DNA of 64,000 nt. Origin: Tridacna crocea (lineage: Eukaryota; Mollusca; Bivalvia; Cardiida; Cardiidae). Of this stretch, positions 14,301 through 35,108 are shown piece by piece. The position numbers were made by a program, and so were the translations under genes. Below the pieces are notes generated by a model, which worked only from the letters and a program-made list of their open reading frames with translations, was not told the origin of the DNA and did not search any database. Each line of letters begins with the position of its first letter. The stretch's first letter is position 1. Location: assembly GCA_943736015.1 (NCBI GenBank), contig OX031057.1, positions 45,160,501 to 45,224,500 on the forward strand, written 5' to 3'.

Positions 14301-17300
14301 AGTGTGTTTTAGTCAATGTTACAGTCATAACACAGCAATTGTTACAGCTCATTTATTCTTATGTTTAACACGTTTCATCACTCCTATGCTGAGATATTAA
14401 AGTGCCTTGCCTGAGGACATTCCTAAAAAACCAGCTTGACTAGCAGAGTCTTCTACTGGCTCTGTACTGTAGGGCATAACAGCAAAAGTTTAACTGTTTA
14501 AAGCAAGCACTTTTTCATTCATCCATGTTTACCTTATTATCTCTCTATCAAAGCTGTGATTGTGTACAGTAAATTAAATGAAGCAAATCAAACTGGTCAT
14601 TCACATCAAATGGCCTTTAACCTTTTACCACACAATCCCAAGTTTTAATGACCCTTGGGAAGAGGCCCCTGGAAACATTTTTCCCTCACTAATAAATCCC
14701 TCTATATGACACTATGACAGAATGGTCCTGATATCTACACAAAATCCTTACTCTGTAAGAAAGCCGGCTGCTGCTGTGATTGTATCACTGTAACTGGTTG
14801 TTGCTGCAACTGTGGTGGTTGTTGTGTTGGCATCTGTTGTACAGGTTGTGAGACAGATACAGGCACTGGTCTACGGATGTCTGGGTGGGCTGGGGCTGGG
14901 TTAGCGGTCAAAGGTTGCGGGGATTCCTGCAAAGTAACAGTATGTAAGTCCTCTGACTTTCCTCTTGAGTAAAAAGAGTTTAGAAATAGATCTTTCCTCA
15001 TTTTTCAGGCAGTTCTGTATTTTAATGCCAAATATTGCTCTAGATTTTTGCAAAGCTGCATAGATTGGGAAATATTTAACCCTTTACCACAAAGCAGAAT
15101 TCTATACCTGTCCAAATTTAAAGGATTTGCAGGTGATAATTTCATAGAGGCCCAAATGCTTCACCTTTTCTTTGACAGGAAAGAAAACTTTGTGGGAATA
15201 GGAGAAAATGCTATTTTACCAGCATTTTCTCCTTTTCCCACAAAGTTTTCAGAAGGCCTCTTTCTCAGAGTCATTCAAAGTTGTCATTGTGTAGTAAAGG
15301 ATTAAAGGCCTTCACTGGTATCATTTCTGGTTTTGTAAGAGGACAAATTCCTTGTCTTTCTATCCCATACACTAAGTATATTTGTATTTTTTTCTGTATA
15401 TACACAGATGAGTAATTTTACACACTTTCAGGTTTGAACAGGGTTTTTCTCTCTAACTATAAAGTTGTGTCTTTAAAAAAAACAAAAAAAAACAAAAAAA
15501 ACTTAACCTATTACCACATAATCCCTACTTGACGACTCAGAGAAAGCAGCCGTTAGAAAACATTGTGGTAACCAGCATTTTCTCCCTTTCCCGCAATGTT
15601 TTCTACCCTTCACAAAACAAATTTCAAATTTTCAGTCACTTTTATTTTGTTGTCTGCAAGTGCTTTCAATTTAGACAAGCCAAAAACTTTATCATTTGAT
15701 AATGAGGTAAATTGTTGATTAGGGTTGTTGTCATCATTGTGGTAGTCATCATCCAGCACAAGAGGAAGACTGTAGCAAAAAGACAGAACATTTCTTCTGC
15801 AATCAAGAAATATACATTAAAAATGAAAAAAAATTAAGTCTTTCCATTTGAAAGTTGTCACAAATGAAAAGCTACCTTTAGCCCATAAGGCATTTCCATG
15901 GTATCTCAAATTGACCCTAAATAACAGCAAGGATGAAGCCATTTCTTATGTGTATATAACACCTTTTGATAGCATAGAAAACATTGTGACAAAAGGTGAA
16001 ATTGCCTCTCACGAGCAATTTCACCTTTTGCCACAATGTTTTCCAAAGGCTCCTACAAGCAATGCGTAGAAATGATTATCTATGGAGAAAAGGGTTAAAG
16101 AGAAATAAAGAGTCACAGAAAAGATGAAAAGCTAGTTATCAGTATTTTCCTCTTTTCCTACAATGTTTTTAAAATCTGTCTTCCTCACTCATAAAACAAG
16201 GCACCAATCATAAACAGGTTAATTCAGCTTTTTTCCACACAATTTTAGGTTTTAACAACCCTGGAGAAGTAGGCTTTATAAAACATTTGGGGAAAAGGAG
16301 AAAAACCCTGGAAAACAGCATTTTCTCCTTTTCCCACAATGTTTTCCACCCTATGAAAGACAAATTTCATTATGTGAACAAAAGTTAAATCTTCATCTGT
16401 AAAAGGTTTCAATCTCAACAAGCCTACATTTTTGTTGTGTTGTAAATATTTCATACAAAATGCAACTCACTGGTACAGGATCTTCATCGCTTTCAGCCCC
16501 AGCAGGGACTGCCCCTGAAAACGGTAACATGGGCTTACCCATCTTTGCCATTCTTGAGATCAGTTTAGCTTTGCTCGTATCATGTGTTGGGGACTGTTTA
16601 AAACATCCAATAAAACAAGTGAGTGATACTCTTGCAAAAGGGAGTTTCATGCACCTCTGTTATGCATTATACAAAGCCAGATATCACATAATTCTGGATC
16701 CATAAAATTCATCTTGTTCAACCCGTTACCACACAATCCCTACTTTTGACAACCATGAGATAGAAGCCTTTAGAAAACATTGTTGGGAAAGGAGAAAATG
16801 CTGGTAACCAGCATTTTCTCCTTTTCCCACAATGTTTTATACCCTTCACAAAACAAATTTCACATTTTCAGTAACTTTTATTTTGTCATCTGCACATGCT
16901 TAATACGGCCGCACAATATATCACTAAATACCTGTACCCGGCTACATATAACCCCTCCAAATTTAGGATTTTACCCAAATTCTGGAGACAGAGAAACATT
17001 GTGAAAAGTTCTTCAGGTGCCTAGGCAGTAGCCATCCACATTGTGGGTTACTTACGTTGGGCGCTAAATGTAACGGGTGGTGAAAAATATCGCGGTTCGA
17101 ACGGGATTCAAACCCAGGGTCTCAGGAAAACCGTTCCCGCACTCTAACTAACTGATCGACCGAACCCCATGTCGATACGGCCGCACGATATATCGCTAAA
17201 TACATATACTCAGCTACATATACCCCCTCCAAATTCAGAATTTGTCCCAGGTGAAACAAGGTGAGAAAATCTATTCAGCCAGACTGGGACCTGGAACCCG

Positions 17301-20300
17301 GGACCCCTTGCATACAGGGGAATTACTCTACCGACTGAGCTACCGGGCCACCTACACAAATTTCTCATCGACATGGGTTCTTAAACCATTATATTATAGG
17401 CTGTTACATACTCCCCTGCAATTTGAAAATCATACTCCGAATTCACAGGACAAAGACCAAATTGCTGTGTTCTTGACAAACCCAAGGGCAGTTATACATG
17501 GGAGAACTTATTAACTGACCAAGCAATCATGGCAATGACCCCACGTTGGGTGCCAAATGTAACAGGTGGTGAAAAATATCGCGGCTCCACCGGGATTGGA
17601 ACCCAGGGTCTCAGGAATATCGTTCCTGCACTCTAACCAACTGAGCTACCGAACCACATGTCAATATGGCCACACGATATATCACTAAATACCTGTACCC
17701 AGCTACACTTACATTCACTTTAAATGAGTTCTGTATGTTACTGTGCGGTTTGCATGCTGACATTAGTCTATGTAACTGCTTTATTGAAGAAGGAGCAAAA
17801 ATTATCACTTTTTTCCTGATGTGTTAGTTGGTAAGATTTACAATGAAATCTTCTTACATGTGAAAGTTGCTCGGAGATAGACTTGGTCCTGCCCTTAACT
17901 GTTTGATCCTCATCTTCAAGGTCATCTGGTGTCTGGTGCTGTGTTGGGGCTGACTGAGGGGGTGGAGGGGCTGGGGATGGAGAGGATTCTCTTCCTACTA
18001 ACTTCACCTGTAGGGTTAAAATGAATCATTTATTTTTGTGTTTTGCAGTGTAGATGCAAGACCATGGTCTGTATTCACCAACCATTTTTAAGACCGCTCT
18101 CAGTCTTATTCTCCAAGATTATCTCTATCTGAAAGTAACGCAACATCTGATTGCCTAAACCAAATGGTTTAGCCACACAGATGTTTTACTTTCTAGGAAT
18201 AAGATTAACCCATTACCACACAATACCTACTTTTGATGCCCCTGAGAAAGAAGCCTTTAGAAAACATTGTGGGAAAAGTAGAAAATGCTGGTAACCAGCA
18301 TTTTCTCCTTTTTCCCACAATGTTTTCTACCCTTCAAAGACAAATTTAAAATTTTCAGTCACTTTTATTTTGTCGTCTGCAACTGCTTTTAATTTGGACT
18401 GGTCTAAAATATTGTCGTTTGGTAATGAGTTAAGAAAGTTCTTCAGAACAGTTGGTGATTACAGAAAAAGTCTGCCTACACTTTAAATTCCAATCTTAGA
18501 ACAACAGATATTTGACCAAAAAAAAACTGGCATACCACCATTCATTTTCATATTTTCCCACCTTTTCATAAATGAAACTGTTCATCACACTTTGTGTCAA
18601 ACTTAATTTTTGTCCGCTAACCAAGGCTTCAATTTTCCAAATTATCTTTCTAATGCAAAGCAATATTTCTTTCCTGATGAGCATTTTCTCATTTTACAAC
18701 AAAAGTTTTACAAATATTTGTGACTTATTCTTTACCAGGGACAAAATCTTACACTTGACAAAATTGAAAGCATTTGCACAAGATACAAGCAACTAACATA
18801 ATACCTACCATATGCTTTTGAAAATGGAGAAAATGACGTTGGAATTTGATAAATGCTGGTTTTGGTCTTTAAAACTCAGATTTAGGATGTAAAAGGTTAA
18901 GACAGATATTTACCCTAACTATCTCCACTTCAAAAATAAGAGTAGAGTTAGCTGGAACCCGGTTTCCCATTCCTTGACTACCATATGCAAGGCTAGGTGG
19001 TATAACCAGCAATCTTTTACCATTCTTCTTCATGCCTATAACACCAGTCTCCCAGCCCTAAATAAATTAATAGAGGTCACTTATTTATGTACATTATCTA
19101 ACCCAAATATAAAAAAAATATCAAATTTATCATGACCATCAAGCCCCTAAATCAAACTCTGTTAAGAAGATATCATCAGAAAATGAGTGAATGGCTGGGT
19201 TTCATTCAGAAAATAAATCTTCTTTTCCTCAAGATATTTCTACAGAGCATGACTCGTACCTATTTTCAGTATGTCTATAAATGTCAAAAAAGTAGTATAA
19301 CCATGTCAAACATATATTGATGATTACCTGTCTTTTGTGTATTTTCACCCTTTCCAAAACAATCCCTGGTTTTTACGGTTCTCGAATAGTAGCCTTTTGA
19401 AAACATTGTTTGAAAAGGAGAAAATGCTGGTAACCAGCATTTTCTCCTTTTCTCACAATGTTTTCTATCCTACCATAGACAGAAATCATCTTTCCAACAA
19501 GAGTTGAATTGTCGTCTGCAGATGCTTTCAATTTTGTCTAGTCCAAAAGTTTGTCGTTTGGGAAAGGGTTAACTCATTGCAAAACGACAAAGTTTTAAGA
19601 TTGTCCAAATTGAAAGCATTTGCATACGACAAAATAAAATCGGCTGAAAAATTGAAATTTGTCTTGTGAAGGGTAGAAAACATTGTGAGAAAAGGAGAAA
19701 ATGCTGGTTATCAGCATTTTCTCCTTTTCCCACAATGTTTTCTTTAGGCTTCTTTCTCGTCAAAAGTAGGGATTGTGTGGTAATGGGTTAATAGTAAACA
19801 ACTTATCTAAGTTTGAATAAATATGCTTTGTAATGGTAGAGATATATCAATATGTCAAAGTTTTTGCACAGGACTATAATGTATTACAATACCTCATTTT
19901 TCTTTTCTTATCAGCCAAGCTAAAAACATTCAAAACGAAGAGGTCATCAAAGTAAGAACATTCAGAGAGATGGAAAAAAAATCTCATAGTTTTGAATAAG
20001 TAAAACATAAGTATCAAGAAAAAAGTTACTCAAAAATGTATTTGACTCACACCTTTTACTGTAAACCAATTAAAACTGACTTTTACGAATTCTGATGTAG
20101 AAACCACTTGAAAAGACTGTGGAAAAAGGAACAAATGCTAGTCATCAGCTTTTTCTCCTTTCTGCACAGTATTTTCTGCCATTTCAAACCAAAAATCCAA
20201 TATTCTTCTGTGTTTGTGGATTTGATTTGTTGAAAATGATCCAGGAAGGACAAGTGTAAAATTCTCTGGTAAAGGGTTGAAAATATCAAGTCTCTCTCAA

Positions 20301-34879: not shown

Positions 34880-35108
34880 TTAACCCATTACCACACAATC
34901 CCTACTTTTGACGCCCCTGAGAAAGAAGCCTTTAGAAAACATTGTGGGAAAAGGAGAAAATGCTGGTAACCAGCATTTTCTCCTTTTCCCACAATGTTTT
35001 CTACCTTTCACAAAACAAAATTCAAATTTTCAATCACTTTTATTTTGTCGTCTGCAAATGCTTTCGATTTGGACCAGTCTAAGATATTGTCGTTTGGTAA
35101 TGGGTTAA
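34880..35108 (-). mobile_element. MITE-A reference copy (piggyBac-like, TTAA-bounded)
   Basis: Type copy of the dominant family. It runs from TTAACCCATTACC to GGTAATGGGTTAA, 229 bp. In the centre is a near-perfect 66-bp palindrome around GCTGGTAACCAGC, with arms GAAAACATTGTGGG and GGAGAAAAT. The two outer arms differ from each other: one contains CAATCCCTACTTTTGACG, the other CTGCAAATGCTTTCGATTTG. I use + for copies whose CAAATTGAAAGCATTTGC arm comes first and - for the reverse. TTAA ends and CCCT-type termini resemble non-autonomous piggyBac elements; no transposase is present. Confidence 0.85.

Follow-up and report, generated by a model that had tools for sequence, protein, structure and literature searches.

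Organization of the element

The window analysed here is a stretch of 64,000 nucleotides from the giant clam Tridacna crocea (contig OX031057.1, positions 45,160,501 to 45,224,500). Judged by its sequence organization, the minus strand carries at 16893-17707 a short non-coding LTR retrotransposon (TRIM) that has decayed and is a mosaic. The two 150-bp repeats with TG..CA ends recognized in the first-pass annotation are present at 17558-17707 (outer) and 17069-17218 (inner), and are complete LTRs of the same family, here called A, with 86% identity between the outer and inner repeats over 170 bp. The outer LTR contains a tRNA-like cloverleaf at 17582-17655, with the previously assigned A box TAGCTCAGTTGG and a B box, which ARAGORN reports as tRNA-Ile(gat) at 17581-17655 and which matches the Rfam tRNA model RF00005 over its full length with 46.4 bits. 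Read on the minus strand, a T5 run resembling a Pol III terminator is found at 17572-17576, 14 nt from the LTR end, and the same site is occupied in most other copies. In the inner LTR the tRNA-like part lies at about 17093-17166 and the T5 run at 17083-17087. The GGTTCG/CGAACC stem previously assigned to this module is present, although the module itself falls below the reporting cut-off of Rfam, which gives no tRNA within 17069-17218.

The sequence between the two complete LTRs was taken at first for the same internal domain, but it belongs to a second family, B (17252-17557). It consists of a family B internal domain (17409-17557, boundary taken from the sequence), with a primer site for tRNA-Lys at 17538-17555 (16/18 nt) and the PPT-like GCAGGGGAGTA at 17409-17419, followed by a family B LTR (17252-17408, boundaries also taken from the sequence). 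This LTR has its own tRNA-like sequence, at about 17278-17349; its T4 run, 14 nt from the CA end, lies at 17266-17269. A 3' piece of an internal domain, terminating in the PPT GGAGGGGGTATA, occupies 17219-17251 and precedes the inner family A LTR. After the latter come a family A internal domain of 122 bp (16947-17068), with a primer site at 17049-17066 that matches tRNA-Lys at 13/18 nt and a PPT at 16947-16958, and a third, partial family A LTR (16893-16946), which stops after LTR nt 53, where the tRNA-like part starts. This partial LTR adjoins a palindromic repeat. The GGAGGGG(G) motif described upstream of the inner two LTRs is present, and the TT and primer motif described after both complete LTRs holds as a site of the tRNA-Lys type, except that the inner site has TAGCGCCC in place of TGGC. 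Given that the internal domain and LTR of a second family sit between the full LTRs, the array is a mosaic and not a simple LTR-internal-LTR-internal-LTR succession. Its history is therefore more complex than the LTR-LTR recombination proposed initially for the tandem layout, a proposal that fits arrays elsewhere in the genome.

Copies in the genome

Searched with an 803-bp query, the genome gives 113 matches (40 of 927 first-look candidates were scored), which rules out chance. Loci with the LTR-internal-LTR structure are spread over many contigs. From their boundaries, the elements measure about 422 bp in family A, 463 bp in family B and 480 bp in family C, and the PPT directly upstream of the 3' LTR is GGAGGGGGTATA, GCAGGGGAGTA and GTGGTGGGGAAGTA, respectively.

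Target-site duplications (TSD) of 4-6 bp had been anticipated, and in family A the 4-bp class is the one observed: 14 of the 21 elements have an exact 4-bp duplication and four more have one with a single mismatch, seven of the 21 being without an exact duplication, while exact duplications of 5 or 6 bp occur in none of them. Mismatched controls gave 4/420. The 21 elements were kept by eye out of 42 arrays, after removal of L012, L024 and L025 (duplicated flanks) and of 18 rows in which an end was truncated or ran on into the PBS or PPT, the array of the window among them; L002-L008 overlap L009-L015 and were counted once. The exact 4-bp duplication was found in 7 of 13 family C elements, or 7 of 11 when L070 and L079, whose ends fall inside an array, are set aside, and a duplication in one of three family B elements. 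Solo LTRs, also anticipated, carry a TSD at L065, L066, L072 and L073. Arrays of three or four LTRs were favoured by the sampling, since the loci were picked as the closest hits of a query with an array structure of its own. Of the six such arrays retained, four are flanked on the outside by a single exact 4-bp duplication, and this fits LTR-LTR recombination. LTRs of the same element are 93.2% identical (43 pairs) and those of different loci 92.3% (duplicated loci included); because the two values are so close, no age was assigned.

tRNA-like part of the LTR and transcription

The Rfam tRNA score rises from 46 bits in the outer LTR of the window to 55 in other copies, and the covariance-model scan suggested in the first-pass annotation returned 14 full-length matches of 49-55 bits across the nine loci scanned. 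In family A, 1629 of 1700 stem cells are paired (81 copies; L012, L024, L025 and one family A row with at least 10 gaps are excluded from the stem-pairing count). Between the families A and B, three of the 21 stem pairs have changed on both sides and are paired in both. The divergence accumulated after insertion at non-CpG sites, computed on all rows including L012, L024 and L025, is 0.0291 in the tRNA-like part, 0.0292 in the LTR part before it and 0.0225 in the part after it. The equality with the preceding part gives no sign that the tRNA-like part is under selection once the element has inserted.

In the 82 LTRs of family A, 73 T runs end at a distance of exactly 14 nt from the end of the LTR, and 20 of the 23 family B LTRs have a run at this site; L012, L024 and L025 were excluded from these counts and from those of poly(A) signals. 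In both families tested, A and B, this run of T4-T5 is terminator-like for Pol III. The signals AATAAA and ATTAAA are absent from the 82 family A LTRs and occur in one of the 23 of family B, and the pattern TATAWAW is seen in 1/82 and 3/23, respectively. T runs are depleted in the internal domain, but this was discarded as evidence for Pol III, because A runs are depleted there as well. From these sequence signals, we infer that the TRIM may be transcribed by Pol III.

It is possible, although we consider it the less probable case, that the same TRIM is transcribed by Pol II from U3, the tRNA-like part being left over from a SINE or tRNA gene, with the T run as a remnant of the terminator of that gene. 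The T run is present in both LTRs, and therefore an efficient terminator would halt the transcript in the 5' LTR too, impeding a full-length Pol III RNA. Transcription by Pol II would also agree with a tRNA-like part that is no better kept after insertion than the LTR part before it, and with the stems of family B, where only 386 of 481 cells are paired and one acceptor and one anticodon-stem pair are broken more often than formed. Nonetheless, families A and B have both retained the cloverleaf, the T run and the two boxes, A and B, although their tRNA-like reference sequences agree at only 52 of 73 positions, and the rarity of canonical poly(A) signals and of TATAWAW also speaks against Pol II.

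Primer site and apparent copies of tRNA-Lys

The PBS directly 3' of the 5' LTR is complementary to the tRNA-Lys-CTT genes of the same genome, with a mean match of 15.5/18 nt in family B; in A and C, most copies match over the initial 12-13 nt. Self-priming by the tRNA-like part of the LTR itself was rejected, given that the mean match is 5.66/13 nt versus 11.68 for tRNA-Lys.

At six loci, the ends of A or C LTRs are joined to 18 nt that match tRNA-Lys exactly, and directly after these 18 nt the sequences diverge from each other. At L087 the copy spans most of tRNA-Lys, with the first mismatch opposite A58; it is placed after the 3' LTR, its register being exactly that of the PBS. These sequences look like fossils of the primer. 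Alternatively, the 18 nt could be template-coded, stemming from an older PBS such as that of family B, and the tRNA at L087 could be a tRNA-Lys gene or pseudogene that is adjacent by chance. This is in line with the PBS of up to 18 nt encoded by family B and with L086, where the match to the family B internal domain reaches 24 nt at 92%. We regard it as improbable nonetheless, since each of the six loci continues differently past the 18 nt, while the element at L087 has a 5' PBS of the short type, and the copy after its 3' LTR contains TGG, complementary to the CCA that is added post-transcriptionally.

Relation to known elements

The reading of the feature as a tRNA-promoter analogue of Cassandra is supported, and elements of this kind have already been published as Helenus, a tRNA-containing TRIM (TRIMp3; Kojima 2024, PMC10886601). 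The clam elements match Helenus in structure, and the kind is therefore already known. Helenus elements measure 311-1263 bp, have a 4-bp TSD in animals and carry a PBS that corresponds to a host tRNA at its 3' end; the tRNAs listed for bivalves include tRNA-Lys (PMC10886601). In the clam, the elements of families A, B and C fall within this size range and have a short non-coding internal domain, an A/B-box tRNA-like sequence in both LTRs, a host-tRNA PBS after the 5' LTR and a PPT before the 3' LTR. The 4-bp TSD is likewise shared, by A (14/21) and C (7/13), with B at 1/3 only, as are solo LTRs and the tandem arrays described in one Helenus family. The host differs, being a heterodont, a giant clam whose COI is 97% identical to that of Tridacna derasa, whereas the bivalve families listed in the text of PMC10886601 are from Pteriomorphia only. 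Two features go beyond the main text of that paper, in which 'terminat' occurs only twice and 'TTTT' never: the terminator-like T run 14 nt before the LTR end and the apparent integrated copies of the primer tRNA-Lys at LTR ends.

Cassandra, the 5S-containing TRIM of plants, has a Pol III promoter and terminator in its LTR and forms long tandem arrays (PMC7215508). The clam elements resemble it in their tandem arrays and in the Pol III signals predicted from their LTRs, but carry a tRNA-like sequence in place of 5S rRNA; at the Rfam cut-offs, tRNA alone, and no 5S rRNA, is reported in the window and the nine loci. The bivalve element biv-TRIM also forms tandem arrays and solo repeats, but its lengths (repeats of 202-218 bp, an internal domain of 77-80 bp) are unlike those of the clam families, and it is described with no clear PBS and with a conserved motif TGATCCCAAAGGAC (PMC6934838). 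A relation to it was rejected, as none of 85 loci contains the exact motif and the lengths differ.

An ordinary tRNA-derived SINE, with paired or tandem copies mimicking LTRs, would account for the A and B boxes and the tRNA-like fold but is exceedingly improbable, as the copies read are not single, A-tailed insertions with variable duplications and no LTRs: they have the LTR-internal-LTR structure with TG..CA ends, PBS and PPT in register and 4-bp duplications of fixed length, solo LTRs exist, and one LTR end is joined to a copy of tRNA-Lys.

Proposed mechanism and significance

Taken together, the feature is very probably a decayed mosaic TRIM of the Helenus type, of about 420-480 bp, whose LTR contains a putative Pol III promoter resembling a tRNA. 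In the 3' LTR, the RNA would end at the T4-T5 run after the tRNA-like part. This would make the tRNA-like part R and leave the final 14 nt as U5, and the run in the 5' LTR would need to be read through at some rate. The RNA would presumably be copied and integrated by proteins that an autonomous Gypsy element supplies, in Helenus one with a shared PBS. The search gave no such partner: the window has no ORF above 141 aa (four ORFs of at least 120 aa, judged by length alone), and at L089, the sole PBS match without a Helenus LTR, no frame exceeds 63 aa on that strand in the next 2.4 kb. There is strong support for a reverse transcription that would be primed at the PBS by the host tRNA-Lys(CTT), and likewise for a plus-strand DNA that would copy the first 18 nt of tRNA-Lys and at times more. 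Integration would generate the 4-bp target duplications, of which the trace is seen. Subsequent LTR-LTR recombination, as the copies support, would give tandem arrays as well as solo LTRs. The mosaic of the window would come from recombination between families, which is also supported.

More speculatively, the Helenus RNA might be wholly made and ended by Pol III, with R as the tRNA-like gene and U5 as the 14 nt past the terminator, and the integrated copies might record failed cycles of reverse transcription, in which plus-strand strong-stop ends halted at m1A58 of tRNA-Lys or passed it; integrase could insert such ends, and the tRNA could rewrite the PBS. We hold this only tentatively.

These observations extend tRNA-bearing TRIMs to a heterodont bivalve, the giant clam, and therefore their origin may predate the Pteriomorphia ancestor proposed in PMC10886601, or there may have been an independent birth or horizontal transfer. 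The position of the terminator gives a concrete and testable map of the RNA, with its R and U5. With the copies of tRNA-Lys, a primer deduced from complementarity is apparently recorded in the genome itself, and these copies may be remnants of a stop at, or a passage through, a modified base of the tRNA.

Structure and copies of the Helenus-type element

The element in the window is a real Helenus-type TRIM, a short non-coding LTR retrotransposon containing a tRNA (PMC10886601). This is well supported, given the LTR-internal domain-LTR copies, 4-bp target duplications and solo LTRs, and its category is already known. The two 150-bp repeats with TG..CA ends described in the first-pass annotation are present on the minus strand at 17558-17707 (outer) and 17069-17218 (inner), and both are LTRs of family A, one of three families (A, B and C) in this genome. 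A third family-A LTR (16893-16946, minus) is broken off past its first 53 nt. The LTR-int-LTR-int-LTR layout proposed there stands only in part: 16947-17068 (minus) is a complete family-A internal domain of 122 bp, the only one in this copy, but the stretch between the two full LTRs holds a family-B internal domain (17409-17557, minus) and a family-B LTR (17252-17408, minus), followed by a 33-bp remnant from the 3' side of an internal domain, which includes a polypurine tract (PPT). The window copy is a mosaic of families A and B. Because differing LTRs within one element are not expected of a single normal round of reverse transcription, we infer that the mosaic arose by recombination after insertion. 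One further locus, L009, joins an A-type LTR to a family-B internal domain and LTR as in the window, but with a different junction.

A near-perfect palindromic hairpin repeat with the core GGAGAAAATGCTGG/TAACCAGCATTTTCTCC also occurs at 35 places in the window, from 300 to 61771 (about one per 1.8 kb, e.g., 16791-16821 and 34953-34983), the core giving 68 strand matches at up to three mismatches versus 0 expected. One copy adjoins the truncated LTR at 16893.

Searching the same 1.05-Gb genome with the 803-bp array gave at least 113 matches (40 scored of 927 first-look candidates), and the LTR gave at least 41 (40 scored of 1143), with LTR-internal domain-LTR copies among the loci read. Family A occurs there as LTR (150-152 bp)-internal domain (122 bp)-LTR or as arrays of three or more LTRs, arrays being over-represented since the query is itself an array. 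Family B stands alone elsewhere with its own LTRs and internal domain (L048-L061, some copies incomplete). In family C the LTR resembles that of A but is extended by 43 nt at the 5' end, the PPT is distinct and the internal domain is shorter; a shift of the PPT seems to have lengthened or shortened U3 between C and A. Among 20 loci retrieved for LTR matches, five (L065, L066, L072, L073 and L074) hold a single LTR without an internal domain, the first four being flanked by a 4-bp duplication.

Several other features were observed at these loci. Flanks are common to L011 and L012, to L020, L024 and L025, and to L064, L067 and L076; these copies reflect duplications on contigs C16 and C6, as well as a larger repeat carrying a Helenus LTR and internal domain. 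A decayed PPT-like AAAGGTATAA lies inside the longer family-C LTR, at the site of the family-A PPT, at L068, L069, L075, L077, L078, L080 and L081. Inverted LTRs lie near each other at L015, L037, L042, L087 and L090, possibly through strand switching in reverse transcription. Contig C31 is possibly a large mitochondrial genome: COI (L085) lies beyond 26 kb, and its open frame under the invertebrate mitochondrial code runs to 618 codons, which is long for COI.

Target duplications

Target duplications, anticipated at 4-6 bp, were counted in the 21 of 42 listed family-A arrays with two complete outer ends. An exact 4-bp duplication flanks 14 of these 21 and one with a single mismatch 4 more; exact duplications of 5 or 6 bp were seen in none. 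In control pairings of 5' and 3' flanks taken from different elements, 4 of 420 agreed exactly over 4 bp, and shifted registers gave at most 2 of 21 (mean 0.33). Among the six kept arrays of three or four LTRs, L011, L013, L035 and L043 have an exact outer 4-bp duplication and L040 and L047 have none, and one outer duplication per array is as expected if LTR-LTR recombination, as already suggested for the tandem layout, lengthened a single insertion. The duplication was found in 7 of 13 family-C elements and in 1 of 3 of family B, where few ends are intact.

The tRNA-like sequence and the T run

The outer window LTR contains a complete tRNA-like sequence, called tRNA-Ile(gat) by ARAGORN and matched over its full length by the Rfam tRNA model (46.4 bits), the sole Rfam match in the window at gathering cut-offs. 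The cloverleaf claimed for each LTR is borne out for the outer one; the inner one keeps an acceptor-type stem, yet is not reported at the Rfam cut-off. In nine loci scanned, 14 LTRs matched the model end to end (49-55 bits), none of them at L009. Stem cells are paired in 1629 of 1700 cases in family A (81 copies) and 386 of 481 in family B (23 copies), where one pair in the acceptor stem and one in the anticodon stem are broken more often than formed. The reference sequences of A and B share 52 of 73 positions, and 3 of 21 pairs (one acceptor, two anticodon-stem) have changed on both sides and are formed in both. By loop letters, the commonest anticodon is GGT in family A and TGT in family B; both specify threonine. 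Position 33, normally U, is mostly C, an argument against a working tRNA. Divergence is 0.0291 in the tRNA-like part, 0.0292 in the LTR part before it and 0.0225 in that after it; since the first two are practically equal, the copies are not maintained once inserted.

A run of at least four T is present in 78 of 82 family-A LTRs, 73 of the runs stopping exactly 14 nt short of the LTR end. Of 23 family-B LTRs, 20 have a T run at this site; in the 12 family-B copies with the run that reach the TTACA end, the distance to that end is again 14 nt. A short trailer and then a T run also follow each of the three host tRNA-Lys genes that were read. AATAAA or ATTAAA was found in none of the 82 family-A LTRs and in one of the 23 of family B. 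As judged from sequence, these features fit a putative RNA polymerase III transcript whose R region would begin with the tRNA-like part and finish at the T run. Such a transcript would have to pass the identical run in the 5' LTR, which is the difficulty with this reading. The scarcity of T runs within the internal domain was dropped as support, since A runs are depleted too. The main text of PMC10886601 has 'terminat' twice, both times about Cassandra, and never 'TTTT'.

Primer tRNA-Lys and its putative copies

The 3' end of tRNA-Lys has five exact copies in the genome, and ARAGORN calls the three read tRNA-Lys(ctt). Against the complement of this tRNA with CCA, the family-B primer binding site (PBS) matches on average 15.5 of 18 nt (12 copies). 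The family-A site matches on average 11.68 of the first 13 nt (41 copies) and the family-C site 12 or 13 of 13 (7 copies), both then departing from the tRNA.

TT followed by the exact 18-nt PBS occurs nine times in the genome: once in a family-B match, once after non-Helenus sequence (L089) and seven times after A or C LTR ends, at L086, L087, L088, L090, L091 and, twice in succession, L092. The pattern demanded 18 exact nt, so that these six loci say nothing of how often the tRNA may be copied. Beyond the 18 nt all six differ: L091 continues with unrelated sequence, as does L086 after a few nt still similar to the family-B internal domain, L088 with a second PBS and the family-C internal domain, L090 with the later part of that domain, and L092 with its second PBS. 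At L087, where the 5' PBS of the element is of the short A type, the 3' LTR is followed by TT, 18 error-free nt, the tRNA-Lys complement to about nt 9 and then an inverted LTR. Its first mismatch lies opposite A58 of the host tRNA and the next opposite 57, with others opposite 49, 46, 44, 42 and 8. In tRNA-Lys, A58 bears a 1-methyl group that blocks or misleads reverse transcriptase. Misincorporation at 1-methyladenosine is mentioned in PMC7472051. Read most simply, these junctions would have arisen where plus-strand synthesis at the 3' LTR ran on into a primer tRNA not yet removed, usually reaching nt 59 and once almost the 5' end. The 4-nt flanks of L086 and L091 agree at three of four positions (CAAT/CATT and TCAG/TCTG), a slight hint that integrase may use such a tRNA-derived end.

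The host clam belongs to Cardiida within Euheterodonta; COI from contig C31 shows 97% identity to a Tridacna derasa entry and 83% to Lymnocardiinae, as expected of a giant clam or a near relative. The bivalve Helenus elements of PMC10886601 come from five orders of Pteriomorphia, and its main text has no word beginning heterodont, Tridacna, Venerida or Cardiida; a full-text literature search from 2023 on found no other paper on Helenus TRIMs. Within the literature searched, the heterodont host, the T-run position common to families A and B and the putative copies of the primer tRNA appear to be new.
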